Positions 5,960-60,091 of a stretch of DNA of 64,000 nt are shown in pieces (the stretch's first letter is position 1; every line of letters begins with the position of its first letter). The stretch is from Chroococcidiopsis thermalis PCC 7203 (lineage in GTDB: Bacteria > Cyanobacteriota > Cyanobacteriia > Cyanobacteriales > Chroococcidiopsidaceae): assembly GCF_000317125.1 (NCBI RefSeq), contig NC_019695.1, forward strand, positions 2,158,336 through 2,222,335, written 5' to 3'. Both the position numbers and the translations under genes were made by a program. The notes under the pieces were generated by a model, which saw only the letters and a program-made list of their open reading frames with translations, made no database searches and was not told the DNA's origin.

Positions 5960-7780
5960 TTATTGACAGTGGAAAAGTTTGGCTCGGTAGCCATTGACTT
6001 TAGCTCGGCGTTGTGAATCTGGGACACAAATTTGATTATTTCCTTCCTCTAAGTCGTGTCTGGCGCTAGTAAAGTTGACAACCCATAAATCTAGGGGTTT
6101 TGGTAGTTCAGCAATTGTTTTGTAAAGAGTTTCTACTGAGCGATTCGAGCTACGGTCGTGCTGAGCTAAAAGAAACAAAGGAGAATTTACTTGAGAACCA
6201 TACAGATGTTTAAACTGCCAACCCAGTGTCATGAGTTCTCTCACCTGTGCGCGAGTATAGTGAGCTGTAGCGATTAAAATTGGATTTTGCGATCCTTGTT
6301 GCATAATTGGTACGAGGCGATCGGGTCTTTCAATCTTTTGATAACCAAAGTTAAAAACGACAGTTAAAGCACCGAGCAAACCGAGTAGCCAAATTAGCAC
6401 GACTGCAACTTTACCTCTTGTTTGCAGAAACTTGAGTCGTAACTGCTGACGAGGAGTCCAGTTTAACTCTGTATGTTGAACTAATCGATTGCTATCCCAA
6501 CAAATTGCTAATGCCGCGCTGACGATCGCAATCAAGGCTGGAAAGTAAACAAAGTGATAGCGCGAGGCAATACTCAAATCTGCACCCAAGGCGTAGGTAA
6601 CAATCGAAAATAGCGCGATCGCTACCAAAACAAATCCACCTACAACTTGAGTTCCACTGCGAGATCGCGATCGCCATAACTGAATTTTCCAACCGCTAAT
6701 GAGTATGGGCAACGTCCAAAATAGAAAAGCGACGATAATTACACCGCAAACCAGGGCAATTGGTTGACTCACGCCCTCAACGGGTAGCAGCCACAGCATT
6801 GAAATCATCCATGCTAAAAACCTCGCCGTGCTTTCTAAAATACTGCCGAAAGGATTACCACGATAAATCCAATCTGTCATTTGGTTATCTGGAATACTTT
6901 GCAAGAAAGGCAACCAGATTAAACCCCCTGCTGTGGTTCCAGCTGCAACGGCAATGAGTCGGGAGGTGGTAGGGGCGAGTTTAGCAAGCATATTCACGCT
7001 TATGTCAATAAATCTTCGACCGAAACCCGCCCGTACAGTGGATTCGGGGAATTGTGAATTGTGAATTTTGAATTGTTTCCACACCACAGCAAGCAAAACT
7101 ATTGCCTCGGCACAGAGGGTGAGGGTGAAAAAGTAATGAACGGCGATTCCTAAAGTGTTAGTTCCCACCCAAGTGAAAACTAACCAAATTGGGATTGGTT
7201 TTCGGTTCTCTAGACAGCGTGTAGCAACAACTAAGCAAGCTAGAGACGCAATAATAACTAAAATTGCTAAGGTATAGTGGCGCGGTTCTTGGGCTTGGTA
7301 GATGCCATAGGGTGAGACTGCCATCATTGCGGCGGCGATTTGTCCTACCAGGCGGGAACGAAAAGCTAGCCAGCACAGACCAAAAATAGCAGGAATTGCA
7401 GCCACTCCCAGAATGGCACTGAAGGCTCTTGCTGCCCATAATGAGACTAGTCCCTCATCTGGGGGAAATAGCTGTAACCATAGGTGATTGAGGAGGAAAT
7501 AGACAGGAGGATGGGTACTCTCTGTCATTAAATTGTGAAAAACATCACCAAAACTGGCAGATGGACGAGGCTGTAGTGGTTGTAGTAGGGTGTCTAGGGC
7601 GATCGCTCGATCTAAAGGGACAGTGCGAAAACTATTACCTAAACTAAATACTAAGGTGGCAAATTCATCCGACCAAGGTGGCTTCGCATCCAAATTAATA
7701 AATCTAATAATCGTGCCGATCGCAATCCAGCCGAAAAGTGTTAGCCATTGAAGCCAACTTCTCTGGGTAAAATTCACCAA
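5960..7780 (-). CDS. Multi-pass membrane glycosyltransferase, GT39/ArnT-like
   Basis: 606 residues with about 10-12 hydrophobic segments. Near the N-terminus WSDEFATL and, about 75 residues later, THPPVYFLLNHLW are typical of lipid-linked sugar transferases of the PMT_2 group; the acidic pair in the first loop is the usual catalytic site. They move sugars from polyprenyl phosphate at the outer face of the membrane. Start is TTG 7780 or GTG 7777. Residues about 240-270, between two membrane segments, are encoded by repeat DNA: a short AATTGTG heptamer run and then a 68-bp palindrome-ended element at 6969-7036, both in frame. The acceptor substrate is unknown. Confidence 0.82.
   Translation of the reverse strand: MVNFTQRSWLQWLTLFGWIAIGTIIRFINLDAKPPWSDEFATLVFSLGNSFRTVPLDRAIALDTLLQPLQPRPSASFGDVFHNLMTESTHPPVYFLLNHLWLQLFPPDEGLVSLWAARAFSAILGVAAIPAIFGLCWLAFRSRLVGQIAAAMMAVSPYGIYQAQEPRHYTLAILVIIASLACLVVATRCLENRKPIPIWLVFTWVGTNTLGIAVHYFFTLTLCAEAIVLLAVVWKQFKIHNSQFPESTVRAGFGRRFIDISVNMLAKLAPTTSRLIAVAAGTTAGGLIWLPFLQSIPDNQMTDWIYRGNPFGSILESTARFLAWMISMLWLLPVEGVSQPIALVCGVIIVAFLFWTLPILISGWKIQLWRSRSRSGTQVVGGFVLVAIALFSIVTYALGADLSIASRYHFVYFPALIAIVSAALAICWDSNRLVQHTELNWTPRQQLRLKFLQTRGKVAVVLIWLLGLLGALTVVFNFGYQKIERPDRLVPIMQQGSQNPILIATAHYTRAQVRELMTLGWQFKHLYGSQVNSPLFLLAQHDRSSNRSVETLYKTIAELPKPLDLWVVNFTSARHDLEEGNNQICVPDSQRRAKVNGYRAKLFHCQ
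6969..7036. repeat. 68-bp palindrome-ended element (GGGCGGGTTT family), inside the GT39 gene
   Basis: Begins GTAGGGGCGAGTTTAGC and ends GAAACCCGCCCGTAC; the ends are inverted copies. Internal sequence AATAAATCTTCG resembles GCGATAAATCTTGG of the copy at 45566. It is read in frame as about 23 residues of the GT39 protein. Confidence 0.75.
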
Positions 7781-7831
7781 CCCTCACACCCCTTACACCA
7801 AATAAATTACACCAATAAATTAATCAAGCAG

Positions 7832-8131
7832 CTATCGCGGTTCATAGTAGCGACAACCCTCACAGGGTCCTTCAGGATTGACCGCACACCTAATATACCC
7901 GGAACGAGCATTGTAGCGACAGCTGATGTCACCAACTAGATATCCTACTCCTTCCAAATAGTAGCGATCGCTATGAAGTGGTGTAGCTTCGCTTCTCTGT
8001 GTCCTGATGGAGGTAAAGTCGATCGCTTGCCTAAATCTCGCTTGTATTTGCGCCTCTCTTCGGCGCAGTAGCCACAGCGATAGCAATGATGGCATTAGTC
8101 CTAAAGCAAGAATCCAGAGTGCTACTCCCAC
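7832..8131 (-). CDS. DUF6464 family small membrane protein
   Basis: 99 residues from GTG 8131, preceded by AGAGGT. An N-terminal hydrophobic segment (about residues 3-21) is followed by a basic stretch, then a conserved cyanobacterial domain: DRYYLEGVGYLVGDISCRY and CAVNPEGPCEGCRYYE. The three late cysteines (C..CxxC) could bind metal or form disulfides; this is inference. Function is unknown. It ends just downstream of the GT39 start. Confidence 0.8.
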   Translation of the reverse strand: MGVALWILALGLMPSLLSLWLLRRREAQIQARFRQAIDFTSIRTQRSEATPLHSDRYYLEGVGYLVGDISCRYNARSGYIRCAVNPEGPCEGCRYYEPR

Positions 8132-8179
8132 CTGTGCTTTACCTCTTGTCAGCTGTCAGTTGTCAGTTATCAGTTATCG

Positions 8180-8232
8180 GTGACTAGTGACTGGTGGCTA
8201 GTGACTAGAAAGGAGTCCAGCCACTAGCCAGT
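8180..8232. repeat. Paired inverted heptamer array (hairpin-like)
   Basis: Left arm made of TGACTAG/TGGCTAG heptamers, spacer AAAGGAGTC, right arm CCAGCCACTAGCCAG. The arms can pair. Five more composites of this kind lie at about 16491, 37798, 40812, 58607 and 63381. Confidence 0.7.
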
Positions 8233-8273
8233 ACGCCGTTAACCAACAACCAACAACCCTCTTACTCCCTAAT

Positions 8274-8780
8274 CTATAACAACCAATTCAGTAGAGGGAA
8301 TTTTTGCTTGGTTTTTGTCTTTTGTCTCAATGTTTGCGCTAGCTGTTGTGCTTCTCTTTCAGCTTGAAATAAATCGATGACTTTAGTTGTCAAAATGAAT
8401 TCACTTGTATTGCGGCGCTTGACTTGGGGGACAATGACTGAGCGATACTCGCAAGCACTTCCAGATAGCTGTTGAGTATAGTTTATTTGGTTGGCGATCG
8501 CTTTTAATCCAAAGATTGCTGCTTCTAGTTCTGCGGCTAATTGATTAATTTTGTCTGCTTGTGCTGCCAAGTGCTGCCATTCGCGGCGATTGCTGTGAGA
8601 CAATTCTGATGGGATTTGAGGCTGCAAGGGTGGTATTGCCTGATGTTCTCGCTTTGGGATTGCGATCGCCGTTACACACGATCGATGGCGTTCGGGAGAT
8701 ACTGGTAATGTTACGACTCTAGAACGCCCTAGATGCTGCTGGATGGGAAATTGGACTAAGTTTGATTTGAGTTTTGTCAT
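8274..8780 (-). CDS. Hypothetical protein, coiled-coil-like
   Basis: 168 residues from ATG 8780; an upstream TTG at 8810 would add 10 residues but has no better support. The middle (AAQADKINQLAAELEAAIFG) looks like an amphipathic helix or short coiled coil. The C-terminus is basic and ends in FPLLNWLL. No signal peptide, membrane segment or known motif was recognised. It is divergent from ppk2, sharing a 120-bp upstream region. Confidence 0.65.
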   Translation of the reverse strand: MTKLKSNLVQFPIQQHLGRSRVVTLPVSPERHRSCVTAIAIPKREHQAIPPLQPQIPSELSHSNRREWQHLAAQADKINQLAAELEAAIFGLKAIANQINYTQQLSGSACEYRSVIVPQVKRRNTSEFILTTKVIDLFQAEREAQQLAQTLRQKTKTKQKFPLLNWLL

Positions 8781-8901
8781 ACTATTTCTCGATTGGAGAT
8801 CGCCGCTCAAATTTTAACTGCATGTTAGTACAAGCGAACTATATTGACAAGGAAAGAACAGGTTAACTTTTTTAAAAAAAATTCGTTTAGGAGAAAAACC
8901 C

Positions 8902-9753
8902 ATGTCAGCTATAGATCGAAATGGGACTCATGCAGCAGTCAAGTCTGCTGAAAGCACCAAAGAGAACAAATCGAAGAAAAAGCTGAACGGTAAGTTATAC
9001 GAAAAAGAATTGGCACGACTGCAAACAGAGTTGGTGAAATTGCAGTACTGGGTTAAACATCAAGGTTTAAAAGTAGCGCTGATTTTTGAAGGACGTGATG
9101 CAGCCGGAAAGGGAGGCGCAATTGGTTGCGTGACGGAATACCTCAATCCGCGTGGTTGTCGTGTGGTGGCTTTGGGTACGCCTTCAGATGTGGAAAAGAC
9201 GCAGTGGTACTTTCAGCGTTATGTTGCCCATCTACCTGCGGCGGGGGAAATTGTGCTGTTCGATCGCAGTTGGTACAATCGTGCGGGGGTAGAACGGGTG
9301 ATGGGTTTTTGTACTGAGGCTCAATATCAAGAGTTTATGCAATCTTGCCCTGAATTCGAGCGGATGTTGGTGCGATCGGGGATTATTTTGTTGAAGTACT
9401 GGTTTTCTGTCAGCGATGAGGAACAGGAACGCCGTTTTCAAGCGCGGGTAAAAGATCCGGCTAAACGCTGGAAACTCAGTCCGATGGATATTGAAGCCCG
9501 CGATCGCTGGGAGGAATATTCTAAAGCTAAGGATGTCATGCTAGCTCATACTAACATTCCAGAGGCTCCTTGGTTTACGGTGGAAGCCGACGATAAAAAA
9601 CGGGCGCGACTTAACTTAATTCAACACATTTTAAGCAAGATTCCCTATCAAGATATGACTCCAGATGCATTCGATTTACCACCTAGAAAACCTGGAACTG
9701 GCTATAATCGTCCACCTCTAAACGAACAGTTTTTCGTTCCCCAGGTTTATTAA
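8902..9753 (+). CDS. ppk2: Polyphosphate kinase 2 family protein
   Basis: 283 residues, the usual length. Walker A is FEGRDAAGKGGAI (about residues 60-72); the second conserved block is LFDRSWYNRAGVERVMGFC; the lid motif is RRFQARVKDPAKRWKLS. PPK2 enzymes move phosphate between polyphosphate and nucleoside mono- or diphosphates. A single PPK2 domain with an N-terminal basic tail suggests the NDP-kinase type, but the nucleotide is not certain. A ribosome binding site AGGAG precedes ATG 8902 at good spacing. It ends 34 bp from the convergent cofH. Confidence 0.93.
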   Translation: MSAIDRNGTHAAVKSAESTKENKSKKKLNGKLYEKELARLQTELVKLQYWVKHQGLKVALIFEGRDAAGKGGAIGCVTEYLNPRGCRVVALGTPSDVEKTQWYFQRYVAHLPAAGEIVLFDRSWYNRAGVERVMGFCTEAQYQEFMQSCPEFERMLVRSGIILLKYWFSVSDEEQERRFQARVKDPAKRWKLSPMDIEARDRWEEYSKAKDVMLAHTNIPEAPWFTVEADDKKRARLNLIQHILSKIPYQDMTPDAFDLPPRKPGTGYNRPPLNEQFFVPQVY

Positions 9754-10970: not shown

Positions 10971-11115
10971 AAGAGGTTTAAGTAGATTCTTCACTCTTTA
11001 CTTCTGCCACTCAGATTTTTACAATCATCTTTTTAAACTCATAATTTTATTATCGACAAATTCAATTCCTGGTAAGGATATTTATATATCGCAATTCTCG
11101 TTGTGAGGCGCATTT

Positions 11116-11143
11116 GTAGGGGCGCATAGCCGTGCGCCCCTAC
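11116..11143. repeat. 28-bp palindrome GTAGGGGCGC...GCGCCCCTAC
   Basis: Centre is ATAGCCGT, so the copy is slightly diverged from the CACAGCTGTG form at 12782, 17992, 50089 and 54399. Intergenic here. Confidence 0.85.
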
Positions 11144-11169
11144 AGATCTTGTATTTCATCTCACTCCCG

Positions 11170-12126
11170 ATCCCTCTTCTGTCACTTTAGGCAAATTCAA
11201 CGAATCTACGTGGTTTTAGCCTACGAAAAATCAAGGTTTCACCCCAGTTTGACAGAAGAGGGATCAACACTATTTCCCACCACCGCTCAATACTGGTATA
11301 GTCAGTGACTCGAAAATCTGCCCTTCCCCTGTTCATTTTTCACCTGTTTAAATCCATACTCAATCCAACCGCGAAGGCTATAGCGTTTCCCCAATTGTAA
11401 CTGCCAAGATTTAGGTAGATTAGTCATCACAAACCAAGTCTCAAGTGGATTTGTAGTTGGGCTGTTTGTTTGACTGATTTTGTAGTAGCGGATTGGATGG
11501 GCTTTGCTAAAGACAATTTCGCGCTCTCTAGCAAGTTTCATCTGGTCGATGAGAGAGAGCTTGAACGGATGCACGCGGCTCGGTTGTAATGGACTTTCTG
11601 ACCTGCTACTACTAGTAGCACACCATGAGGACTACGAATTGCAACCAGACAAGGAAGTTTTAAGCGAAGAAATTCGTGAATCACATCTCCACTTTCTCCA
11701 TATCAGCTGTCTGCTAGTACTAGCACAAGAGCGGAATTTCCATTCCTCAAGTGCTTGTAAAATTTCCACCGCTAATTGGGGGGCGCGTTTTATATAGCAA
11801 TCCTATTTGATTCATGAACGTGGAGCAGGCTAGAAGCCTACTTTACAAATCATTTAGAACTGCTATATACATCACCCGGTTGCAGTCGTGAGCGTGGTTT
11901 GAATATCTTCAATCGCAATGGGTACGTGATGCGATCTACGACTGCATCAGCGTTGACTGACACGATTCCATTATCAGTTTTACCCAAGTTACCAATGTAT
12001 TGCTTGGCAACAGAAATCGACGAAGCCAACAGTAGTAACGGCAGGACGTGGCTCAACCATGCTCTAGCAGTGAAAGAGAAAGTTTTACCATCTATTTTAC
12101 TCCCGCTAAGGTGACAGAAGAAAGAT
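11170..12126. mobile_element. Decayed insertion sequence with terminal inverted repeats
   Basis: The left end ATCCCTCTTCTGTCACTTT (11170-11188) and the inverse of the right end (12108-12126, reading AAGGTGACAGAAGAAAGAT) match at 16 of 19 positions. Between them lie transposase fragments on the minus strand. An extra inverted copy of the left end, GACAGAAGAGGGATC, lies inside at 11251-11265. The whole is about 957 bp. No target duplication was established. Confidence 0.7.
11302..12115 (-). pseudogene. Transposase remnant (DDE type, IS701-like as I read it)
   Basis: Two frames retain transposase-like sequence. The N-proximal part (about 12115-11860) reads HLSGSKIDGKTFSF and then AKQYIGNLGKTDNGIVSVNA. 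The C-terminal part (11574-11302) includes ETWFVMTNLPKSW and LRGWIEYGFKQVKNE. Between them the frame is lost by several frameshifts, though pieces such as PQLAVEILQALEEW are still readable on the minus strand. These blocks resemble the YIGNLGK and WIEYGFKQ blocks of DDE transposases common in cyanobacteria. The gene cannot make an active enzyme. Confidence 0.75.
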
Positions 12127-14390: not shown

Positions 14391-15479
14391 TCATAACTCT
14401 GATTCTTTCATAGGAACAGGTACGGACTTTGCTGTTTCCAAAACTTTTTCCGATTCGGATAGATGTGACTCTTTGGCTGTAGATTTCTGAAACAATTGTT
14501 CTAATTTCTCTCGCTGATTGACGAGATAAATACTAACTAAGGTGAGAGAAACGCCCGTCCACTGGATGGGGCTGAGAACTTCGGAGAGAATTAAGCTACC
14601 AAATAAGAGGGCAAATACAGGTGTGAGAAAGGTAAGGGCGCTAAGACTGGTAAGGTTACCGCTAGAGGCAAAGTAGAAGAATAACCCATAGGCGATCGCA
14701 CTACCAAAAATCGTGGCATAACTTAGCGATATCCACCCAGATAAACTAATATCTGCCCATTGCCCAGCCTCTAACCCCGCAGAAAGAGCAAATAAGGGAA
14801 TTCCACCAATAATCATATGCCATCCCGTTGCTGACACCGGATCGGCGTGACGACAAACATAACGAATAGCTACCGTACCGACAGCCATTGATAGGGCTGC
14901 GAGTAACATCAACCATTCGCCGCTGGCGAATAAGGATTGTAGGGGCGGGTTCTGAAATATTTGTTGCAACACTGACATATCTGGTAAACTCGCCCGCACA
15001 GGGGTAATACCAGAAAATAGGTTGAGAATTAAATCGTCTGGTAAGCCAATTAAACTAATCCCCAGTACGCCAAACATCAATCCCAGCCATCCCCATAAAC
15101 CGATTCGTTCGCCAAATAACCAACTCGACATTAAAGCCACAGCTAGAGGCTGGGAGTCAATCATAACCGATCCTAAACCCGCCCCAGTTCTCACTAAACC
15201 TTCTGCCAAAAAGCCTTGAAACAGCGATCCATCAATTAAGGCAAATAGACTAATCCACAACCACGCCGCCCATCCTTTAGGCTGAGGTCTACCCATCGCC
15301 ATTGCTGCACCTAATACTAATATGCCAGCAGGCAACAGTCTGACTCCTGCCATGAATAAAGGTGTTGTATGGGGAATAACGCCTTTCATCGCTACCATTG
15401 CTGTTCCCCAGAGGAAAAAGGGTGCGATTAGTAGCACGGAGGCAAAGGGTAATCTTGATTCAGTCAGTTTCAGATGCAT
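14391..15479 (-). CDS. EamA/DMT-superfamily transporter
   Basis: 362 residues with about ten hydrophobic segments in two five-helix halves, the usual plan of the drug/metabolite transporter group. Recognisable are LIAPFFLWGTAMVAMKGVIP in the first half and YATIFGSAIAYGLFFYFASS in the second. The C-terminal 40 residues are hydrophilic and probably cytoplasmic. The substrate is unknown. About 90 bp of repeat-rich sequence separates it from the GT4 gene downstream. Confidence 0.88.
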   Translation of the reverse strand: MHLKLTESRLPFASVLLIAPFFLWGTAMVAMKGVIPHTTPLFMAGVRLLPAGILVLGAAMAMGRPQPKGWAAWLWISLFALIDGSLFQGFLAEGLVRTGAGLGSVMIDSQPLAVALMSSWLFGERIGLWGWLGLMFGVLGISLIGLPDDLILNLFSGITPVRASLPDMSVLQQIFQNPPLQSLFASGEWLMLLAALSMAVGTVAIRYVCRHADPVSATGWHMIIGGIPLFALSAGLEAGQWADISLSGWISLSYATIFGSAIAYGLFFYFASSGNLTSLSALTFLTPVFALLFGSLILSEVLSPIQWTGVSLTLVSIYLVNQREKLEQLFQKSTAKESHLSESEKVLETAKSVPVPMKESEL

Positions 15480-28509: not shown

Positions 28510-28537
28510 ATGAACATCGATCGCTGATTTAGTTTTT

Positions 28538-28565
28538 GTAGAGACGTTACGTGTAACGTCTCTAC
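28538..28565. repeat. 28-bp palindrome GTAGAGACGTTAC...GTAACGTCTCTAC
   Basis: Perfect 28-bp palindrome between convergent ndhJ and the GNAT gene. Its end supplies the TAG stop codon of the GNAT gene (28562-28564). Could also work as a bidirectional terminator. Confidence 0.9.
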
Positions 28566-29041
28566 AAATTTTTGACATAAATGCGATCGCAGCGTGCTGT
28601 TTCTACCCCTGTTGCAGGTTGATAGCCGCTGCTTTCGTATAATTTAATCGCTTCTACAAGAACGCTGGCAGTTTCAATCCAAATTTGCTGAAATCCCTTC
28701 GCTGCGATCGCTTTTTCTAACTCTTGTAATAAAAATCTCCCCAAACCCAACTTTCTAGCTTGGGATAGAAGATACATTTTTCTAATTTCTACAGCTGTCT
28801 CGCCACGATGGAAAGGATAGTAACCAGCCGTTCCCACTACTTGACCCTGGGATTCTACTACCCAAAACTCTCCACCGGTGGCTAAATAATAATTTTCGAC
28901 CTCCAACACATCTCGGTCAGCACCTAGAGGTTCCCAATCCAAACTATATTCTGCCAACACAGAACCAATAACCGCTGCCACCAGATTGCGATCGCTTTGG
29001 CTCCAATCTCGAATGAGAAAATCTTTGTAAATAGCTTGCAT
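28562..29041 (-). CDS. GNAT-family N-acetyltransferase
   Basis: 159 residues with the acetyl-CoA fold: VVESQGQVVGTAGYYPF (strand 4), EIRKMYLLSQARKLGLGRFL, containing the pyrophosphate-binding RKLGLG loop, and the C-terminal AIKLYESSGYQPATG. The substrate is unknown. The final codons run into a palindromic repeat that provides the stop. Confidence 0.88.
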   Translation of the reverse strand: MQAIYKDFLIRDWSQSDRNLVAAVIGSVLAEYSLDWEPLGADRDVLEVENYYLATGGEFWVVESQGQVVGTAGYYPFHRGETAVEIRKMYLLSQARKLGLGRFLLQELEKAIAAKGFQQIWIETASVLVEAIKLYESSGYQPATGVETARCDRIYVKNL

Positions 29042-40883: not shown

Positions 40884-41672
40884 TCACTCCTCACTCCTCA
40901 CCCCTAACCACTGGCTCAACAGTACCAAACCGACTGAAAATAAAAGAATTAGTGTTACTGTAGCGTTAATTTCTGGGGTCATACCAAAACGCAGTCGCGC
41001 CCATATTTCCATTGGTAGTGTATTATCCTGCCCCGTGAGGAAGATTGTCACGACGATCTCATCAAAACTTAGGGTAAAGGCAAGTAAGGTAGCTGAAATC
41101 AGAGCCGAACGTAACCCAGGAAATACCACTTTCCAAAACGCTTCCCAAGGGGGGGAACCTAAATCGGCGGCGGCTTCTTCCAAACTGCGGGGTAGGCGAG
41201 CAATTCGGGCGGCGACAGTGTTAAATACAACTGGAAAGCCAAACGTGGCATGACCGATGATGACAGTCATTAATCCCAAGGGTAGGTTTATTGCTGAAAA
41301 GAAGCTAAGCATGGCTACCCCCGTGACAATTCCAGGCAGAACAATCGGTAAGATGACTGCGGCGCGAAAGAAGTTTTTGCCAAAGAATTGATATCGCTGG
41401 ATGGCTAAAGCTGCCAAAGTTCCTAAAGTTGCAGCAATAGTACAAGATGCGATCGCCACTTTTAAACTATTAAATAATCCTACTTGCAGTTGTTCGTCCT
41501 GCAAAGCCTTGGCATACCAATCTAGCGTCCAACCGTGAATTGGTAGAGATAGCACTCTCCCCTGACTGAAGCTAAAGATAGCGATCGTCAGGATGGGCAA
41601 ATACATGAATAAATAGATTATCAGCGTAACTGTGCCGAAAATCAATTTAGGGAGTCGTAGGGGCAGGTTCAC
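40884..41672 (-). CDS. ABC transporter permease, PotC type
   Basis: 262 residues from GTG 41672, six hydrophobic segments. The EAA loop, which contacts the ATPase, is EAAADLGSPPWEAFWKVVFP. Opening YLFMYLPILTIAIFSF is typical of spermidine/putrescine permeases. Pairs with the PotB-type permease upstream. Confidence 0.92.
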   Translation of the reverse strand: MNLPLRLPKLIFGTVTLIIYLFMYLPILTIAIFSFSQGRVLSLPIHGWTLDWYAKALQDEQLQVGLFNSLKVAIASCTIAATLGTLAALAIQRYQFFGKNFFRAAVILPIVLPGIVTGVAMLSFFSAINLPLGLMTVIIGHATFGFPVVFNTVAARIARLPRSLEEAAADLGSPPWEAFWKVVFPGLRSALISATLLAFTLSFDEIVVTIFLTGQDNTLPMEIWARLRFGMTPEINATVTLILLFSVGLVLLSQWLGVRSEE

Positions 41673-41783
41673 ACAGAATCTCTATTGAGTACGAAGTTTT
41701 TTTGCGCCCGTACGGGAGTCGGGAGTCGAGAGGGTTCAAGTCCGAATTCCGAATTCCGAATTCCCTTTTGTCTCCTAATAATT

Positions 41784-44336: not shown

Positions 44337-44466
44337 CTCTTGACTTTTAGACTCTTTAGCTATATAAGGAGGCAGAACAAGTCAAAGTAGAAAAAAGCTA
44401 AACTTTATTGCCATTTAAAATTTGGCAGTAAAATTCTGTGTCTGTGTGAGAAGGAGTGCCGTGAGT

Positions 44467-46473
44467 ATGAAAAGTTTCCGTAGCGATCGCCATCCCTATT
44501 TATCCTTCCAGACGATGGCGCAAAAAACTTGCATTCACGGTTTATTCTCAAGTGCCACTAGAATTAGTCTAACTATATTTTTCTGGCTGTGTTTCAGTCA
44601 TGTAGGTGTTGCTATCCCACCACTGCAACTGACGCAAACCCCAACTAGCGAATCTCAAACTGCGAAGAAAGTTATATTTGTCAATCCTACAGCTGGTGAG
44701 AATGGCAATGGCAGTGAAAGCAGTCCTTTTAAAACGATTGCTCAAGCCCTTCAACAAGCTGAATCCAATGTCATCATTAAACTAGCGGCGGGAACTTATA
44801 GCAGAGAATCTGGTGAGACATTTCCGCTCAGACTGAAACCAGGAGTTACTCTTCAAGGCGACTCTAGCAGCCAGGGTAGCAATATTGTTATCAAAGGTGG
44901 GGGAATGTACATGAGTCCTACCTTTGCCCGTCAAGATGTAGCAATTTTAGGGGCGGATGAAGCCGGATTGACAGGAATAACAGTCACGAATCCCAACCCA
45001 CGCGGTTATGGATTATGGATTGAGTCATGCAGTCCGGCGATCGCGGATAATACTTTTACTGGTAGCAGCCACGATGGAATTTCCATCACGGGTGATAGTG
45101 CGCCAATCATCCGTAACAACCGCTTTACTCAAAATGGCGCGAATGGAATTACAGTTTACGGAATTTCCAAACCAGAGATCCGCGCTAATGTCTTTGAGCA
45201 AACCGGTTATGGCATTAATGTTGCTCAACGAGCTGCACCGTTAATTGTAGAGAATCAAATTCTAAATAATCGGGCTGGTGTCGTGTCTCAAGCTTTCACA
45301 AAACCAGTCCTTCGCAATAACATTATCGAGGGTAATAAAGAAGATGGTGTCGTGGCGATCGCCAACAGTCAACCCAATTTAGGCACGCCAACCGAACCAG
45401 GTAACAATCAATTTCGCCAAAATGGTCGTTATGACATCAATAGCAGCGCAGCCAAGCGAGTTACAATCTCTGCGGTAGGCAATCAAGTTACCGCAGATCG
45501 TTCAATTGGTAATATCGATTTTGTAGGAACGAGTAATGTTGCCTCAAATGCGGGAGTCGAGAATCGTAGAGGCGGGTTTAGCGAAAGTGCCACCGATGAA
45601 GCGATAAATCTTGGTTCAAAACCCGCCCGTACAGGAGTCGTAGGGGCGGGTTTACCAGAAGATCCTGTGCGCAAACCTACAATTCCATCAAACTCGCCCG
45701 CACGAGAATCTTTGATGCCGAATTCCGAAGTCAAGCAGGCGGATGACGAGGTTTCCTCGTCATTAAAGCCGCGTCGAATTCCGAATTCTCCTCCAGTTTC
45801 TCAACCAGCATTAGAAGTCGTAGAAATTCCCGTACCGCCTCCAGAGTCGGAATCAGCGCCAGTTCAAAAGAAGCCCGCTCAAAAGCCCAAGAAGCCTTCA
45901 GCATCTAAGCCTAGCAAACCTGCATCACAAAACCAATCTCCAAAAGTTGCGACATCAACGACAAAACCTAAGCCCGAAGTAGCAAAAGCTCCTGCAACTA
46001 AACCCAAGCCCGAAGCAACGAAAGCCCCTGCTACAAATGAGAAGCAACCGCTTGCTGCCAACCCTCAAACTGAAGTGGAAATTCCTGTCAGCCGATCGCA
46101 GCCACCAGCAAAAGGCGATACGATAACTCAAGGCTTACCAACTTTAAAACCAGCTGCCGTCAATCCTAACGAATTGTTACCCGTTCCCGATGGTGACATA
46201 CCTTCTGGTAGCGATCGCCCTGCCCGAATTGCTGCGGTATCATCGCGTAACTCTTCTCAAGTGGGAAGTTTGCGCTATCGAGTCTTGGTAGAAGCAGAAA
46301 ACGCACCTACACAAGAAAAAGTGCGATCGCTCGTTCCTGGTTCGTTTCGGGTTATTGCTAAGGGTAAAACAATTATGCAAGCGGGCGCATTTAGCGATCG
46401 CTCTAAGGCTGATGAAGTCGCGCAGTTACTCACTAGCAACGGGTTAAAAGCTAAAGTTGAACAGATGAATTAG
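44467..46473 (+). CDS. Exported DUF1565 beta-helix protein with C-terminal SPOR domain
   Basis: 668 residues from ATG 44467 (AAGGAG about 10 bp upstream; GTG 44461 is an alternative). A signal segment (ISLTIFFWLCFSHVGVAIPP) precedes DUF1565 (KVIFVNPTAGENGNGSESSP) and right-handed beta-helix repeats such as APIIRNNRFTQNGANGITVY. A Pro/Lys/Ala-rich linker follows (about 370-590), then a SPOR-like end (MQAGAFSDRSKADEVAQLL). SPOR binds denuded septal peptidoglycan in other bacteria. Part of the linker (about 366-432) is encoded by repeat DNA: a 67-bp element, a second half element and a small hairpin. Confidence 0.85.
   Translation: MKSFRSDRHPYLSFQTMAQKTCIHGLFSSATRISLTIFFWLCFSHVGVAIPPLQLTQTPTSESQTAKKVIFVNPTAGENGNGSESSPFKTIAQALQQAESNVIIKLAAGTYSRESGETFPLRLKPGVTLQGDSSSQGSNIVIKGGGMYMSPTFARQDVAILGADEAGLTGITVTNPNPRGYGLWIESCSPAIADNTFTGSSHDGISITGDSAPIIRNNRFTQNGANGITVYGISKPEIRANVFEQTGYGINVAQRAAPLIVENQILNNRAGVVSQAFTKPVLRNNIIEGNKEDGVVAIANSQPNLGTPTEPGNNQFRQNGRYDINSSAAKRVTISAVGNQVTADRSIGNIDFVGTSNVASNAGVENRRGGFSESATDEAINLGSKPARTGVVGAGLPEDPVRKPTIPSNSPARESLMPNSEVKQADDEVSSSLKPRRIPNSPPVSQPALEVVEIPVPPPESESAPVQKKPAQKPKKPSASKPSKPASQNQSPKVATSTTKPKPEVAKAPATKPKPEATKAPATNEKQPLAANPQTEVEIPVSRSQPPAKGDTITQGLPTLKPAAVNPNELLPVPDGDIPSGSDRPARIAAVSSRNSSQVGSLRYRVLVEAENAPTQEKVRSLVPGSFRVIAKGKTIMQAGAFSDRSKADEVAQLLTSNGLKAKVEQMN
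45566..45653. repeat. 67-bp palindrome-ended element plus an adjoining half, inside the DUF1565 gene
   Basis: 45566-45632 begins GTAGAGGCGGGTTTAGC and ends CAAAACCCGCCCGTAC. The interior AAGCGATAAATCTTGG matches AAGCGATAAATTTTGG in the 59114 copy. A second left end, GTAGGGGCGGGTTT, follows at 45640-45653. Confidence 0.88.
45743..45763. repeat. 21-bp hairpin in the DUF1565 linker
   Basis: ATGACGAGG, loop TTT, CCTCGTCAT: a perfect 9-bp stem within the coding sequence, flanked by CCGAATT repeats. Confidence 0.7.
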
Positions 46474-47775: not shown

Positions 47776-49167
47776 TTAACAACGTGCAATTCCCTCCTGA
47801 CGGGCAGCGCGTTGCACAGCCGCAGCTACAGTAGGAACAACTCTAGCGTCAAATATAGAGGGAATAATATGTTCGCGGTTGAGTTCTGTGGGTGCTACTA
47901 AAGAAGCGATCGCCTGTGCTGCTTCTAAACACATCATGGTAGTTATTGTCGTGGCACGACAGTCTAAAGCGCCGCGAAATACCCCAGGAAATGCCAGAAT
48001 ACTATCGATTTGATTTGAGTAGTCGCTGCGCCCCGTTGCTATGACTGCAACATCATTATTTACTAGTTCTGGCTGTATTTCAGGGATTGGATTTGCCATC
48101 GCCATCACAATTGGATTTTTTGCCATCGATCGCACCATATCTCGCGTTAATATACCTGGGGCGCTAACACCAATAAATATGTCAGTACCGACTAAAGCAC
48201 CTGCCAAAGTTCCCATTTGACTGACGGCAAATTCTTGCTTTTGGGCAGGTAAATCTTGACGCTGCGTGGAGAGAATACCTTTAGAGTCGCACATTAAAAT
48301 ATGGGCAGCACCAGCTTTTTTCAACAGCCGCGCGATCGCAACTCCCGCCGCCCCCGCACCGTTAATAACGATTCTCACTTCCGTTATTGACTTATTAACT
48401 AACTTCAAAGCATTAGTCAGCGCCGCCAGCGTCGCGATCGCTGTCCCCTGCTGGTTGCCGTGAAACACGGGAATATCTAATTCTTGCCGCAGCCGTCGTT
48501 CGATCTCAAAGCAATGCGGGGCAGCAATATCTTCCAAGTCTATGCCACCAAATACGGGAGCAATTTTTTTCACAGTAGCGATAATTGCTTGTGTATCCTG
48601 AGTCGCCAAACAAATTGGAAAAGCATTAATCCCAGCAAATTCTTTAAAGATCGTGGCTTTGCCTTCCATGACAGGTAATGCCCCCGCCGCCCCCAGATTT
48701 CCCAATTCTAAAACTGCACTCCCATCAGTGACGATCGCCACGGTGTTTTGTTTGATTGTCAGACTGTACACCTGTTCTGGATCGCGGGCGATCGCCAAGC
48801 AAACTCGCCCCACTCCTGGCGTGTATGCCATTGCCAAATCATCTTGACTTTTAAGCGGAATTCTGCTGTTGACGGAGATTTTGCCACCCCGATGCAAATT
48901 AAAAGTGCGATCGTAGACATTAATCACTTCAATTTCTGGTAATGCCCGTACTGCCTGCACGATCGCCTCAGCCTGTGCCGTGCTATAAGCATCTACACTC
49001 AGATCGCGAATTGCCTGCGATCGCGTGCGTTCCACCAGATCGATTTGACCGAGAGTTCCACCACAAGAGGCGATCGCTTGAGTCACGCTAGCCAACATCC
49101 CAACGCGATTGGGAATCTGCAAGCGCAGCGTCAAACTAAAACTAGGATTTGGAGTCGAGTCAATCAT
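47776..49167 (-). CDS. NAD-dependent malic enzyme with N-terminal ACT domain
   Basis: 463 residues. An ACT domain (LRLQIPNRVGMLASVTQAIA, residues about 13-85) precedes the malic enzyme core: DDLAMAYTPGVGRVCLAI, VTDGSAVLELGNLGAAGALP, EDIAAPHCFEIERRL and the NAD fold VINGAGAAGVAIARLL. It decarboxylates malate to pyruvate. The ACT domain suggests control by a small molecule. The start is followed on its 5' side by a long nonamer array. Confidence 0.94.
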   Translation of the reverse strand: MIDSTPNPSFSLTLRLQIPNRVGMLASVTQAIASCGGTLGQIDLVERTRSQAIRDLSVDAYSTAQAEAIVQAVRALPEIEVINVYDRTFNLHRGGKISVNSRIPLKSQDDLAMAYTPGVGRVCLAIARDPEQVYSLTIKQNTVAIVTDGSAVLELGNLGAAGALPVMEGKATIFKEFAGINAFPICLATQDTQAIIATVKKIAPVFGGIDLEDIAAPHCFEIERRLRQELDIPVFHGNQQGTAIATLAALTNALKLVNKSITEVRIVINGAGAAGVAIARLLKKAGAAHILMCDSKGILSTQRQDLPAQKQEFAVSQMGTLAGALVGTDIFIGVSAPGILTRDMVRSMAKNPIVMAMANPIPEIQPELVNNDVAVIATGRSDYSNQIDSILAFPGVFRGALDCRATTITTMMCLEAAQAIASLVAPTELNREHIIPSIFDARVVPTVAAAVQRAARQEGIARC

Positions 49168-49172
49168 AGAGA

Positions 49173-49297
49173 GGGGGACAAGGGGGACAAGGGGGACAAG
49201 GGGGACAAGGGGGACAAGGGGGACAAGGGGACAAGGGGGACAAGGGGGACAAGGGGGACAAGGGGGACAAGGGGGACAAGGGGGACAAGGGGGACAA
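49173..49297. repeat. Long GGGGGACAA nonamer tandem array
   Basis: About 14 units; all are 9 bp except one 8-bp unit near 49227. It lies 5 bp from the maeB-type start and within the shared upstream region of lepB. Confidence 0.95.
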
Positions 49298-49300
49298 ATA

Positions 49301-49393
49301 CAATTACCAATTACCCATTACCCATTACCCATTACCCATTACCCATTACCCATTACCAATTACCCATTACCAACTACCAACTACCAACTACCC
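49301..49393. repeat. CCCATTA/CCAACTA heptamer tandem array
   Basis: About 13 heptamers: two ATTACCA-like, then seven ACCCATT in a row, then ACCAACT units. Adjacent to the nonamer array. Confidence 0.92.
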
Positions 49394-50063: not shown

Positions 50064-50088
50064 TTAGTGGGTGATGAGGCGGGAGTTG

Positions 50089-50116
50089 GCAGGGGCGCAC
50101 AGCTGTGCGCCCCTAC
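50089..50116. repeat. 28-bp palindrome GCAGGGGCGC...GCGCCCCTAC
   Basis: Nearly perfect copy with the centre ACAGCTGT, in the lepB to synthetase gap. Confidence 0.9.
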
Positions 50117-50248
50117 CGACAACTGAATTAGTAGACAGCAATGCTTGTGTCCTAACTTAATAGCTCAAATGCATCTATCGCAAGGTAAGTTGTATGTATA
50201 CAGGACTGCAAACGAACTTTACCAGCGATTGAGTTTGTCGCACGAGTT

Positions 50249-52273
50249 ATGTCGCACAACCGCCCCTCCAACTATTATTTCAACTTAACCGAGCGAGAAC
50301 GCTCCAATTTAAAACGCACAGTTGATTATTCCAGCGTGCAGTCATTGCCAGAAATTTGGGCGATCGCTGTCAAAAAATTCGGCGATACCGTGGCGCTGCA
50401 CGATCCCCACCTCAAACCAGAGACAACTTTCACCTACAATCAGTTGTACCAGCACATTCAAATCTTTGCCGCAGGATTGCAAGCGCTGGGGGTAGCAGCA
50501 GGCGATCGGGTGGGACTCATAGCTGATAACAGTCCGCGTTGGATGATTGCAGATCAAGGAATATTAACCGCTGGGGGAGTGGATGTCGTGCGTAGCTCCC
50601 AAGCGGAAAAACAAGAATTACTATACATCTTGGAACATAGCGGTAGTACAACCCTGGTAATAGAAGACCGCAAGACTTTAAGTAAAGTGCGCGAAGGCTT
50701 GGACAAACTACCAATTCAGTTGGTGGTGTTGCTGTCAGATGAAATTCTAGATGAAAGCGACTCGCTCAAAATTATGAATTTCTCTCAACTGATGGCGGTG
50801 GGAGAAAACCAACCACTCCAACCAGTAGCACAGAATCGGGATACCCTTGCCACCCTGATGTACACTTCTGGGACGACGGGTAAACCCAAGGGTGTCATGC
50901 TGTCTCACGGAAATTTACTGCATCAAGTTACGTCATTTGGCGCAGTCGTACAACCAGAAATTGGCGATCGCATTCTCAGTATCTTACCTGTCTGGCACTG
51001 TTACGAGCGGAGTGTCGAATATTTCCTCCTTTCTCAAGGTTGTACCCAGATATACACGAATATTCGTCACGTCAAAGCAGACTTAAAAGCATTCAAACCT
51101 CGCCTCATGGTAGGCGTTCCTCGGTTGTGGGAATCGATTTACGAAGGGGTGCAAAAACAGTTCCGCGACCAACCCGTTAAAAAACAACGTCTGATCTATT
51201 CCCTGTTGAATATCAGCCAACGTTACATAAAAGCACGGCGAATTGTTCGAGGATTAGCATTAGATAACCTCTATCCTTCTCCATTGCAACGCCTGCAAGC
51301 TGGGATTCAAACCGCAGTTTTAGCACCGATTCACAATCTTGCAGATCGTCTGATCTACAAACAGGTACGAGAAGCAACGGGAGGACGAATTAGGCAGGTG
51401 ATTAGCGGTGGTGGTTCCCTTGCCATGCACCTCGAAAACTTTTTTGAAATTGTTGGTGTCGAAATTTTAGTAGGATATGGTTTAACCGAAACCTCTCCCG
51501 TGACCCACGTTCGTCGTCCTTGGCGCAATCTACGCGGTTCCTCTGGGTTGCCAATGGCAGGCACGGAAGCCAAAATCGTCGATCCTGAAACTCGCCAAAC
51601 CTTACCACCGATGCAGCGCGGCTTGGTCTTGATCCGAGGACCCCAGGTGATGCAGGGTTACTACAAAAACCCAGAGGCGACAGCCAAAGCGATCGATCCT
51701 GAAGGTTGGTTCGATACTGGCGATTTAGGTCTAGTTACACCGAAAAACGACATCGTGCTGACAGGTAGGGCAAAAGATACGATTGTCTTGTCTAACGGTG
51801 AAAATATCGAACCGCAGCCAATCGAAGATGCGTGTCTGCGCAGTCCTTACATCGACCAAATTATGCTAGTCGGACAAGACCAGCGATCGCTCGGAGCCTT
51901 AATCGTCCCTAACTTAGAAGCATTGCAGCAGTGGGCAGTTTCTCAGAATTTGCAATTGGCTTTACCAGAGGTAAGACAAGGGGGACAAGGAGAACAAGGG
52001 GGAACTCCCGACTCCCGTACGGGCGGGTTTGGAAACCCACCCCTACCGACAATCGATCTCAACCACCCAGCCATCCAAAACTTATTCCGCCAAGAGTTAA
52101 CGCGGGAAGTTCAAGACCGTCCAGGGTATCGTCCCGACGATCGCATCAGTACATATCGGCTGATTTTAGAGCCATTTTCAATTGAGAATGGAATGTTAAC
52201 CCAAACCTTAAAAATTCGCCGACCCGTTGTCATGGAGCGCTATCACGATATGATTGACGGGATGTTTAGGTAA
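50249..52273 (+). CDS. AMP-forming long-chain acyl-CoA/acyl-ACP synthetase
   Basis: 674 residues. The AMP-binding loop is LMYTSGTTGKPKGVMLSHGN; further blocks are LVGYGLTETSPVTH, GWFDTGDLG and LTGRAKDTIVLSNGENIEP. Cyanobacterial enzymes of this type recycle free fatty acids by loading them onto ACP; that function is inferred. Residues about 574-599 (GGQGEQGGTPDSRTGGFG) are encoded by repeat DNA: nonamer-like GGGGGACAAGG units and a 30-bp palindrome. They fall in the small C-terminal domain and keep the frame. Confidence 0.93.
   Translation: MSHNRPSNYYFNLTERERSNLKRTVDYSSVQSLPEIWAIAVKKFGDTVALHDPHLKPETTFTYNQLYQHIQIFAAGLQALGVAAGDRVGLIADNSPRWMIADQGILTAGGVDVVRSSQAEKQELLYILEHSGSTTLVIEDRKTLSKVREGLDKLPIQLVVLLSDEILDESDSLKIMNFSQLMAVGENQPLQPVAQNRDTLATLMYTSGTTGKPKGVMLSHGNLLHQVTSFGAVVQPEIGDRILSILPVWHCYERSVEYFLLSQGCTQIYTNIRHVKADLKAFKPRLMVGVPRLWESIYEGVQKQFRDQPVKKQRLIYSLLNISQRYIKARRIVRGLALDNLYPSPLQRLQAGIQTAVLAPIHNLADRLIYKQVREATGGRIRQVISGGGSLAMHLENFFEIVGVEILVGYGLTETSPVTHVRRPWRNLRGSSGLPMAGTEAKIVDPETRQTLPPMQRGLVLIRGPQVMQGYYKNPEATAKAIDPEGWFDTGDLGLVTPKNDIVLTGRAKDTIVLSNGENIEPQPIEDACLRSPYIDQIMLVGQDQRSLGALIVPNLEALQQWAVSQNLQLALPEVRQGGQGEQGGTPDSRTGGFGNPPLPTIDLNHPAIQNLFRQELTREVQDRPGYRPDDRISTYRLILEPFSIENGMLTQTLKIRRPVVMERYHDMIDGMFR
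52017..52046. repeat. 30-bp short form of the GGGCGGGTTT element
   Basis: GTACGGGCGGGTTT and AAACCCACCCCTAC joined with only GG between. Looks like an internal deletion of the 67-bp form; read in frame inside the synthetase gene. Confidence 0.8.
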
Positions 52274-54300: not shown

Positions 54301-54693
54301 TATCTCGCACTCTTGCGACTGTAAGTCGCGACTACACAAACTAAGTCTGCCTGCGCAGACTGATGCGATCGCAATTCTCGATTGCGTGCGTGACAGTAGT
54401 AGGGGCGCACAGCTTTGCGCCCCTACTTATTATGTGTTGTACCCAATTGAAAACCTCTATAAAATGGCAGTTTTAGCCCGCGCAGGCGGGTTTTGTCTGT
54501 GTAGCAGCGAATTCTATTCGCCCAAACTCTTAACATTATCTACCGATCGCCAACCACTCCAAAGTAGAGACAATCGGGCATTCATTATTCAAAATAGTGA
54601 AAGTGAACCAAGAAGTAGGGAACAAAATCAAGTCACAAGTCGCAATTAATTCCGAATTCCGAATTTTCTCTCCACGCACCACGCACCACTCAT
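54301..54693. repeat. Repeat-rich intergenic stretch
   Basis: Holds the palindrome AGTCTGCCTGCGCAGACT near 54344, the 28-bp GTAGGGGCGC...GCGCCCCTAC copy at 54399-54426 (one mismatch in the centre, AGCTTTGC) and GCCCGCGCAGGCGGG near 54476 followed by GTAGCAGCGAATTCTATTCG. An 87-codon frame across it only translates repeats. Confidence 0.8.
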
Positions 54694-56015: not shown

Positions 56016-56043
56016 GTAGAGACGTTACATGTAACGTCTGTAC
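56016..56043. repeat. 28-bp palindrome GTAGAGACGTTACATGTAAC...
   Basis: Same family as 28538, with centre ACATGT and one mismatch in the last arm (GTCTGTAC). 11 bp after the dacB stop. Confidence 0.88.
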
Positions 56044-58624: not shown

Positions 58625-58690
58625 TGGCTAGTGACAAGAATTGAGTCTAGTCACTAGCCACCAGCCACCAGCCACCAGCCACTCACCAAT
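58587..58690. repeat. Paired inverted heptamer array (hairpin-like), overlapping the regulator's 3' end
   Basis: Left arm GACCAGTGACCAG...AGTGGCTAGTGATTAGTGGC, spacer about AAGAATTGAGT, right arm CTAGTCACTAGCCACCAGCC repeated. The left arm codes the tail and stop of the upstream regulator. Confidence 0.8.
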
Positions 58691-58695
58691 GACCA

Positions 58696-59073
58696 ATGAC
58701 AGCCAAACGCATATTAGTAGTTGACAACGAACCATATATCCAAGAGGTTGCCCAAATTTGTTTGGAGATGGTAGCGGGTTGGCAAGTTAGCACGGCTAGT
58801 TCTGGTAGCGAGTGTTTGACCAAAGCCGCAGCCGAACAACCCGATGCTATCCTCCTTGATGTGATGATGCCTGAGATGGATGGATTAACAACTTATAAAG
58901 AGTTGCAGGCAAACAAAGCAACAAAACATATTCCCGTGATTTTCTTGACTGCCAAGGTACAACCAGCCGATCGCCGCCGCTACGCTCTGTTAGGTATGAA
59001 AGATGCGATCGCCAAACCCTTCGATCCTCTTCAGCTAGCCTCTCAAGTCGCTACTACTTTGGGCTGGAATTAA
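58696..59073 (+). CDS. Stand-alone response regulator receiver
   Basis: 125 residues, a lone receiver domain. KRILVVDNEPYIQEVAQ holds the acid pair, phospho-acceptor D55 is in ILLDVMMPEMDGLT, the threonine is in VIFLTAKVQPADR and the lysine in AIAKPFDPLQ. It follows the large regulator by 71 bp and probably works in the same phosphorelay as a shuttle or sink. Confidence 0.93.
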   Translation: MTAKRILVVDNEPYIQEVAQICLEMVAGWQVSTASSGSECLTKAAAEQPDAILLDVMMPEMDGLTTYKELQANKATKHIPVIFLTAKVQPADRRRYALLGMKDAIAKPFDPLQLASQVATTLGWN

Positions 59074-59113
59074 ATCATTACAATTCGCTACTACTCGTCG
59101 ATAACTGACAACT

Positions 59114-59182
59114 GTACGGGCGGGTTTAGCAAGCTAGATTGACCACCAAAGCGATAAATTTTGGCTCAAAACCCGCCCCTAC
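59114..59182. repeat. 69-bp palindrome-ended element (GGGCGGGTTT family)
   Basis: Begins GTACGGGCGGGTTTAGC and ends CAAAACCCGCCCCTAC. Intergenic copy; its interior closely matches the copy inside the DUF1565 gene. Confidence 0.9.
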
Positions 59183-59201
59183 GATAACCGCTCGCTGTTT
59201 C

Positions 59202-59219
59202 CTCACAAGTTCCTCAAAT
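59202..59219 (+). promoter_or_regulatory. Shared upstream motif, copy 1
   Basis: CTCACAAGTTCCTCAAAT lies 187 bp before the gene at 59407. The first 15 bases recur exactly at 60390 before another small gene, followed in both by a similar TCA...CTTA tail. Possibly an alternative sigma factor promoter or an activator site. Confidence 0.45.
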
Positions 59220-59406
59220 TGTCAGCTTATTCTAACAATAGAAGCAGATCGGTTACCCTCAGATATGAGAAACCGAATTCTGCTTGCTCAGCACCAATCC
59301 TGTAAGAACAGATTTAACAAACTCATTCGCAATTTTTCACAATTTCATAGATATTTCAGCAAGACCCAACAACTAACAACCAACAACTAATTTTGGAGAC
59401 TTGCCC

Positions 59407-59661
59407 ATGAGTACGCGAGAAGAAGCAAGAGAGGCAATGACGCAGCAGCGCCAGCAGGAAGAAAATTTGCAGCAGTCTATGTTGCAGCGTACAGAAGCAG
59501 AGTTAGCTGACTCTGGAGATTCGGAAATCCAACAAACAGCCAGAGAACGCATGACCGAACAAAGGCAACAAGAAGAACATCTCCAGCAGTCTATGTTAAG
59601 CCGTTCTGCTGCTGAGGTAGGTCTACCCACCCAAACAGACCCATCTGTTCAAACGCAATAG
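59407..59661 (+). CDS. Small hydrophilic protein with an internal duplication
   Basis: 84 residues from ATG 59407 with GGAG about 8 bases upstream. Two related units: AREAMTQQRQQEENLQQSML (about 7-26) and ARERMTEQRQQEEHLQQSML (about 45-64). Strongly Gln/Glu-rich and helical, so probably coiled-coil or disordered. No known family recognised. Together with the motif at 59202 it could be a stress-induced protein; that is inference. Confidence 0.75.
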   Translation: MSTREEAREAMTQQRQQEENLQQSMLQRTEAELADSGDSEIQQTARERMTEQRQQEEHLQQSMLSRSAAEVGLPTQTDPSVQTQ

Positions 59662-59699
59662 CTTGCTAGTGAATTTTAGTTGAATTAGGAGGGAAAAAT

Positions 59700-59885
59700 A
59701 TGTCGCTCAGTAGAACATCACGGCAAGTCGTACAGTTTGTATGGAATGCTTTAGCACAACTGGTAACTTATTTAGGAGCTGCGGTTAAGCGAATTTTTGC
59801 TCCGAACGACGACCAGTATCCAAATACAGGAGTTCAGCCTTTTGAAGGTGATATCAACGATAAAAAACACCGTTCTAAAGCATAG
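59700..59885 (+). CDS. Small hypothetical protein
   Basis: 61 residues with a strong AGGAGGG ribosome site 6 bases before ATG 59700. A short amphipathic-to-hydrophobic part (VVQFVWNALAQLVTYLGAAV) precedes a polar tail with NDDQYPNTGVQPFEGD. It follows the 84-residue gene by 38 bp, so the two are probably one transcript. Function unknown. Confidence 0.7.
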   Translation: MSLSRTSRQVVQFVWNALAQLVTYLGAAVKRIFAPNDDQYPNTGVQPFEGDINDKKHRSKA

Positions 59886-59943
59886 TAAATGCAGAGACAT
59901 TAAAGGTTAGAAATTAGGGGTTAAGACGATAAAAATAATTCCT

Positions 59944-60010
59944 GTACAGACGAGTTTTGTAGGAAGATTGTTGTCACTAACCATCGAGACTTTACTAAAC
60001 CCGCCCCTAC
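59944..60010. repeat. 67-bp palindrome-ended element, diverged left end
   Basis: Begins GTACAGACGAGTTTTG and ends CTAAACCCGCCCCTAC. The same 67-bp length as the 45566 and 60025 copies. Confidence 0.75.
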
Positions 60011-60024
60011 GGTTTCTGACTGCT

Positions 60025-60091
60025 GTAGGAGCGGGTTTCGCGTGAAGATTATTGCTGTAAACTGCCAATTTTTTGCTAAACCCATCCCTAC
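60025..60091. repeat. 67-bp palindrome-ended element
   Basis: Begins GTAGGAGCGGGTTTCG and ends CTAAACCCATCCCTAC, 14 bp after the previous copy. The following 380 bp up to 60475 shows no gene apart from the motif at 60390. Confidence 0.78.

Follow-up and report, generated by a model that had tools for sequence, protein, structure and literature searches.

A probable GTAG-tagged, REP-like hairpin element dispersed in heptamer repeats and reading frames of Chroococcidiopsis thermalis PCC 7203

A stretch of 64,000 nucleotides from Chroococcidiopsis thermalis PCC 7203 (the window, G000:C1:2158336-2222335, in a genome of 6.69 Mb in three contigs) contains copies of a palindromic element of about 67 bp, which had been pointed out in an earlier note on this DNA. 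The element is present in high copy number and has fixed ends and a fixed polarity. It lies among heptamer repeats, in phase with them and always pointing the same way, and a clear target duplication specific to each copy is lacking. In one genome it has been amplified recently, and insertion within reading frames and tandem duplication have also been observed. The reading favoured here, with a probability of about 0.55 that includes its model of single-strand transposition, is that of a small non-autonomous, GTAG-tagged hairpin element similar to repetitive extragenic palindromic (REP) sequences. In the following, G000 is the own genome, G299 and G300 are two other genomes of the same genus, the carriers in the family are G000, G298, G299 and G300, and the more distant carriers tested were G078, G019, G118 and G284.

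Ends, length and polarity

The element is an imperfect palindrome whose 14-base arms, GTAGGGGCGGGTTT and AAACCCGCCCGTAC, pair as a single hairpin save for position 4. When the own genome was searched for both exact ends enclosing an interior of 26-56 bases, 46 forward and 47 reverse matches were obtained at 48 distinct places, with none in the control, and single ends with at most one mismatch gave 411 matches versus 4 in the control. A set of 69 distinct own copies was assembled from the window and from fetched loci picked by the element ends, with a script that allowed 28-80 bp. It comprises 62 long copies (61-70 bp, mostly 67 or 68 bp) and seven of 30 bp, the latter from the window and from among the matches listed in the single-end search, which is not a full count. 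The length was 63-70 bp in 60 of the 62 long copies and 66-69 bp in 46 of them, in loci selected by their ends. The whole-genome search by the two ends, proposed in the earlier note, thus bears out the near-constant length and defined ends that had been claimed.

The mismatch at position 4 is polar. The ends were GTAG and GTAC in 59 of the 69 own copies (the others being eight G/A, one G/G and one C/C), and G/C in 56 of 63 G299 copies (five G/G, one G/A and one C/C). Free ends would give about half symmetric copies, whereas two of 69 and six of 63, respectively, were found; this estimate, like the test on the 30-bp copies below, assumes independence, which tandem and related copies violate. 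This fixed mismatch deserves attention because copying from arm to arm would erase it. In the folds of 12 copies the two arms paired with each other, and no inverted repeat was seen by eye in the 14-base arm alone.

At least two sequence groups can be told apart among the interiors, the larger of which fits, by its ends, 61 of the 123 long copies of G000 and G299; in the polar copies of this group the interior pointed in one direction in 43 and in the opposite direction in 17. A candidate inner stem suggested by the consensus (AGATT...AATCT) was rejected, as it was paired just as often as expected in 23 and 27 copies, and RNAalifold, applied to 20 chosen copies, gave the arms only. On the favoured reading, the interior serves mainly as a passive spacer under length constraint.

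Amplification and orthologous sites

Among 292 genomes sampled from the phylum, the strict GTAG...GTAC pattern was found in five, the own one included. When position 4 was allowed to be G or C, 4 of 19 genomes of the family matched, with 121 matches in G300 and 94 in G299. The distant cyanobacterium G078 carries 37 near-identical copies of a 62-bp version, 23 of them identical, which indicates that the element moves. Among 32 distinct copies examined out of these 37, AGRAGTCA preceded the GTAG end in 27 and NNRAGT followed the other end in all 32, an orientation shared with the own copies, and the variable base of the flanks was alike on the left and right in 13 and unlike in 12 of 25. Since the left and right flanks combine freely around a near-identical 62-bp core, the core moves as a unit. 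Together with the presence and absence of copies at orthologous sites (Table 1; near window position 54650, G299 and G300 have a copy and G000 none), these copies reveal a dispersed unit with defined ends that moves, as the earlier note had proposed when it spoke of a mobilised unit.

Orthologous sites were compared in G000, G299 and G300, where 84 rows were reduced to 49 single-copy pairs by setting aside rows that repeated window loci, sites with several copies, and empty rows, in part artefacts of overlapping matches. Polarity was unchanged in the 40 informative pairs, which share sites with one another, and length was equal in 40 of 46 long pairs. Interior identity was at least 0.78 in 41 of the long pairs, 0.72 in two and at most 0.63 in three pairs at two sites. 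At 59114 the interior is reversed in G299 and G300 as judged by its group-specific ends, with the element ends and flanks retained. A simple inversion was considered and discarded for this site: the interior is just as far from those of the relatives in one direction as in the other (identity 0.59/0.61 and 0.63/0.63), so it has been replaced, not simply inverted. The L009/L342 case, two G300 copies with 0.68 identity both ways, resembles it. Inheritance thus accounts for most interiors, and replacement within an existing copy for a few.

Three identical 68-bp copies (L356, L357 and L358) lie inside 26 kb of G300, possibly as recent copies or through a local duplication. A plasmid collection queried with one 68-base copy gave no match, and among the publications found, judged by their titles, none dealt with the sequence of the element or its peptide. 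Independently of this query, a 3.4-kb stretch of contig C3 is 92% alike to a Chroococcidiopsis plasmid over 47% of its length.

Heptamer setting

The flanks are often tandem heptamer repeats in phase with the element, RRRAGTC ahead of the GTAG end and ARRAGTC past the GTAC end. Within 30 bases of the polar own copies, AGTC was found in the flanks of 45 of 67 and GACT in 3 of 67, mostly in heptad phase; the corresponding numbers in G299 were 45 and 2 of 57. The AGTC flank holds for both orientations of the interior (12 of 21 and 4 of 6 own copies, 17 of 22 and 7 of 11 in G299), with GACT in none, and the whole window is unbiased, with 261 AGTC and 255 GACT. Some copies stand without recognisable heptamers. 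No exact target-site duplication was present at 30 G078 loci, and no clear or copy-specific one in the own and G299 copies.

Copies within genes

Copies were counted as in-gene when they lay in an open reading frame (ORF) of at least 237 amino acids with at least 45 amino acids on either side; many fetched stretches are short, and some host ORFs run past their ends. By this measure 16 of the 69 own copies are in ORFs, with the GTAG end on either coding strand. The hosts identified with Pfam or NCBIfam include glycoside hydrolase 31, DUF1565, EamA, pyridine-nucleotide oxidoreductase, QueA, universal stress protein, hybrid kinase, chorismate-binding enzyme, RecN, homogentisate phytyltransferase and acyl-CoA synthetase, and the 237-amino-acid ORF at L231, which holds two copies, matched no family. 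Of the seven 30-bp copies, whose length alone preserves the frame, six were in such ORFs, versus 10 of the 62 long ones (P=0.0004, among the matches listed and the window).

The DNA-repair protein RecN has two tandem copies in all three genus genomes and a short linker in all 13 readable genomes of other genera (G308, unreadable there, and G295, whose match ends earlier, were left out); in G298 one arm is apparently retained. The segment in acyl-CoA synthetase was found in the three genus genomes and in none of the 80 other orthologues kept of 501 found. The alignment of orthologues thus shows these two in-gene segments to be missing elsewhere, and the idea put forward in the earlier note that the element is a source of in-frame protein segments is upheld. 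The gene region of homogentisate phytyltransferase has one copy in G000 and tandem partial copies in G299 (L272 763-954).

Within the window, the six stretches reported previously were all recovered at their coordinates, and the placement of two full copies and the short form inside genes held for all three, but two further full in-gene copies (14939 and 45640) had been missed; window genes contain four full copies and the short form. The acyl-CoA synthetase (AMP-binding) host was confirmed, as was EamA for one of the added copies. For the DUF1565-SPOR protein, DUF1565 was confirmed and no Pfam SPOR match appeared at E 0.001. The label GT39 for the product of 5960-7780 was not confirmed: no Pfam family matched at E 0.001 (DUF1418 only, at E 0.29) and no NCBIfam at E 0.01.

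Table 1. Copies of the element in the window, their host genes and their state at the orthologous sites
Copy	Position	Strand	Host ORF and in-frame peptide	Other genomes of the genus
68 bp, GTAG end left	6969..7036	+	Membrane-protein-like ORF 5960-7780 (-); VRAGF...KLAPT	Copy in G300; different 28-bp palindrome, GTAGGGGCGCAC...GTGCGCCCCTAC, in G299
61 bp	14939..14999	+	EamA transporter ORF 14391-15479 (-)	Found in 3/3 genus genomes
Decayed, about 57 bp, right arm truncated (end coordinate counted by eye from alignment)	41657..41713	+		Fuller orthologous copy in G299
67 bp	45566..45632	+	DUF1565 ORF 44422-46473 (+); RRGGF...KPART	G300 yes, G299 no
64 bp, tandem with the 45566 copy	45640..45703	+	DUF1565 ORF 44422-46473; VGAGL...SPAR	G300 yes, G299 no
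30 bp, short form	52017..52046	-	Acyl-CoA synthetase ORF 50249-52273 (+); RTGGFGNPPLP	
69 bp	59114..59182	-	Intergenic	Other interior in G299 and G300, same end polarity
67 bp	59944..60010	-	Intergenic	Kept in G299 and G300
67 bp, GTAG on both ends	60025..60091	.	Intergenic	GTAC and GTAG ends in G299

The end motif, with at most three mismatches, matched 25 times in the window versus 3.74 expected, and 25 matches were reached in none of 100 shuffles. Other repeats of the window are the following. A second palindrome family of about 28 bp, GTAGGGGCGCA...TGCGCCCCTAC, has three imperfect copies (11112-11147, 50085-50120 and 54398-54427), and where the gene at 5960-7780 has the 67-bp element, its G299 orthologue has a copy of this palindrome instead. 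Two copies (28535-28568 and 56016-56043) were seen of a third palindrome, with GTA ends, GTAGAGACGTTAC...GTAACGTC.... Perfect 16-base inverted repeats 65 nt apart at 11169-11265, with three places in G300 at 85-94%, resemble a miniature inverted-repeat transposable element (MITE), and long arrays of ACAAGGGGG and ATTACCC units occupy 49160-49390.

Discussion

The mismatch at position 4 leaves the GTAG tag on a single end. According to the favoured reading, that of a non-autonomous GTAG-tagged hairpin, the element would be transposed as a folded single strand, and from one strand only. A Y1/HUH-type transposase supplied in trans, which may now be rare in the genus or lost from it, would attach it to the 3' side of a heptamer-like target. 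Copies would later stay put, be duplicated in tandem together with their heptamers and occasionally swap interiors through their identical arms, and those in genes would survive only if the net insertion preserves the frame and hits a tolerant linker. GTAG on one strand and an irregular stem are also what the TnpA-REP transposase requires, and this likeness in anatomy makes a single-strand Y1 mechanism the likeliest one, though the enzyme is missing.

Several results weigh against this reading. The four family carriers have 19 Y1 genes (4 own and 15 in G298-G300, PF01797 at E 0.001), and paired element ends were found within 1.5 kb of none of them, where weak single end-like matches (11-12 of 14) do exist. 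Classed by tail motif after excerpts of PMC6006769, 18 of these genes are of the IS200-like Y..xQ type and one has YLEHH, with the Y..NP motif of REP-associated tyrosine transposases (RAYTs) in none; the search for a Y1-type, REP-associated transposase proposed previously thus returned four own genes, none of the RAYT type. Pairing of the inner bases lacks covariation. The left and right flanking 7-mers are slightly more alike than shuffled ones (0.46 vs 0.43 and 0.55 vs 0.51), a few of 48 settings reaching P 0.007-0.02, and weak duplication or a local repeat effect may lie behind this likeness. As the flanks of one copy exceed the shuffled ones only slightly in similarity, they point to a choice of target and not to duplication, with a weak excess remaining. 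Among these repeat-rich, variable sites, none was seen that is cleanly empty and retains both junctions. Finally, polarity along the chromosome gave P=0.047 (runs) and P=0.022 (arc) in G300, for the first 100 of 108 matches, and P=0.38 and P=0.57 in the own genome, so that a clear replication-strand pattern is absent and none is claimed.

Spread without a transposase has also been considered. Tandem heptamer repeats would recombine or switch template and carry the hairpin between arrays, with no dedicated enzyme, and the copies in phase within heptamer arrays, the tandem duplication of element-plus-heptamer units and the replacement of interiors at fixed sites would all be expected from it. 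We consider it unlikely, because some copies lack recognisable heptamers and because the flank bases combine freely round the 62-bp core in G078.

A true REPIN (a REP doublet forming a hairpin), mobilised by a RAYT since lost from the genus or residing in another strain, would account for the GTAG tag, the imperfect palindrome, the inverted arms and the high copy number. RAYT-like genes exist in all four distant carriers tested, where 7 of 15 Y1 loci have the Y..NP tail (two in G078, one in G019, one in G118 and three in G284). However, none of these 15 loci has paired ends of the element. The RAYT-like gene L111 of G078, which served as a positive control, is flanked by another GTAG family, GTAGGTTGGGTT...AACCCAACA (at 1323, 1956 and 2007), which is likely to be a separate REP family with the L111 gene as its transposase. 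In the four family genomes neither a RAYT-type gene nor paired ends near a Y1 gene came to light, and the lone arm forms no hairpin; a strict REPIN label is not supported, and an origin from a lost or foreign RAYT appears improbable.

An ordinary MITE, with terminal inverted repeats served by a DDE transposase, would have the defined inverted ends, the near-constant length and perhaps the weak excess of flank likeness, but an exact duplication is lacking at all 30 G078 loci and a clear copy-specific one elsewhere, the orientation to the target is single and fixed, and the arms are asymmetric at a fixed position; the MITE-like alternative of the earlier note is therefore very improbable in its classical form. 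An immobile selected site (RNA hairpin, terminator or protein binding site) could explain the strongly conserved ends, in loci that were chosen by those ends, and the many sites common to three species, yet the window has no Rfam match, copies occur in unrelated genes, where either coding strand may have the GTAG end, and presence at sites differs between species, which leaves this explanation hardly credible.

Beyond the favoured reading of a REP-like hairpin, a more far-reaching claim can be formulated, which we hold tentatively and with more doubt than confidence: a RAYT-independent cyanobacterial hairpin may enter heptamer repeats in a fixed register and polarity and then exchange its interior on the spot, sometimes for a reversed one, without losing the mismatch between its GTAG and GTAC ends. 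In-frame segments would thereby be written into core proteins (RecN, QueA and homogentisate phytyltransferase), and the element would represent a separate way of moving and a steady supply of new protein segments. If true, a genus with many hairpin repeats and no RAYT tests the need of REP-like elements for a RAYT, and the fixed polarity against heptamers provides a target rule definite enough for an assay. The in-frame copies in RecN and other core enzymes represent protein segments whose origin can be dated, genus-wide and missing in neighbours, and peptides such as VGAGL...NPPVP, which derive from the repeat, are a warning for annotation.

Comparison with known systems

The element shares its heptamer embedding with the small dispersed repeats of Nostoc, reportedly described by Elhai et al. 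in 2008, which are said to be cyanobacterial and mobile, 21-27 nt long, in some cases predicted to form hairpins and often located in tandem heptamers. It differs from them in size (67-68 bp, plus the 30-bp form) and in its common 14-base ends.

Another related description concerns the GTAG-tagged REPs (Di Nocera et al. 2013, PMC3733652), which include the cyanobacterial families GTAG-12, -15 and -16; the main text of that paper makes no mention of Chroococcidiopsis. A one-end GTAG, a stem-loop, high copy number, dimers and clusters and occurrence in Cyanobacteria are common to both, and the element here is dispersed and multicopy with GTAG at one end (GTAC as partner in 59 of 69 copies, GTAA in 8 more). 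In the same excerpts those REPs are 20-40 bp long, their stems measure 6-13 bp and their loops are for the most part short, whereas here 14-base arms enclose a spacer of about 40 bases and 62 of 69 copies measure 61-70 bp, seven being 30 bp long. The comparison with GTAG-12, -15 and -16 is by description, not by consensus sequence, and kinship is possible.

According to those excerpts, GTAG-tagged REPs also lie partly inside ORFs, repair genes included. The earlier note had called reading in frame unusual, and it is; with intragenic GTAG REPs and Rickettsia palindromic elements already described (PMC3733652), in-gene occurrence of REP-like elements is in itself not new. The Rickettsia elements, in the portions consulted of PMC10969869 and PMC3733652, are likewise palindromic, dispersed and in frame in unrelated conserved proteins, and 16 of the 69 copies here lie in ORFs; they differ in that they have CGTC ends, many are about 150 bp long and they belong to another phylum, in contrast to the GTAG/GTAC ends of this element.

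REPINs with RAYTs, as presented in part of Bertels and Rainey (2011, PMC3116915), resemble the element in their inverted conserved ends, less conserved spacer, single hairpin and movement as a unit; they differ in having a RAYT flanked by the repeat and two inverted REPs, each palindromic, and the element, unlike them, sits in heptamer repeats. The E. coli TnpA-REP system (excerpts of PMC8266576) is similar in its one-end GTAG and irregular stem, but its substrate has an unpaired GTAG and a bulge in mid-stem. Hairpins derived from IS200/IS605 would agree with the oriented flanks and the lack of clear duplication, and no matching transposon was found near the family Y1 genes; a clear target-site duplication, as in DDE-type MITEs, is absent, with a weak excess of flank likeness in some settings. 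What is special to this element is the absence of RAYTs in its genus, the exchange of its interior and its fixed polarity within heptamers.

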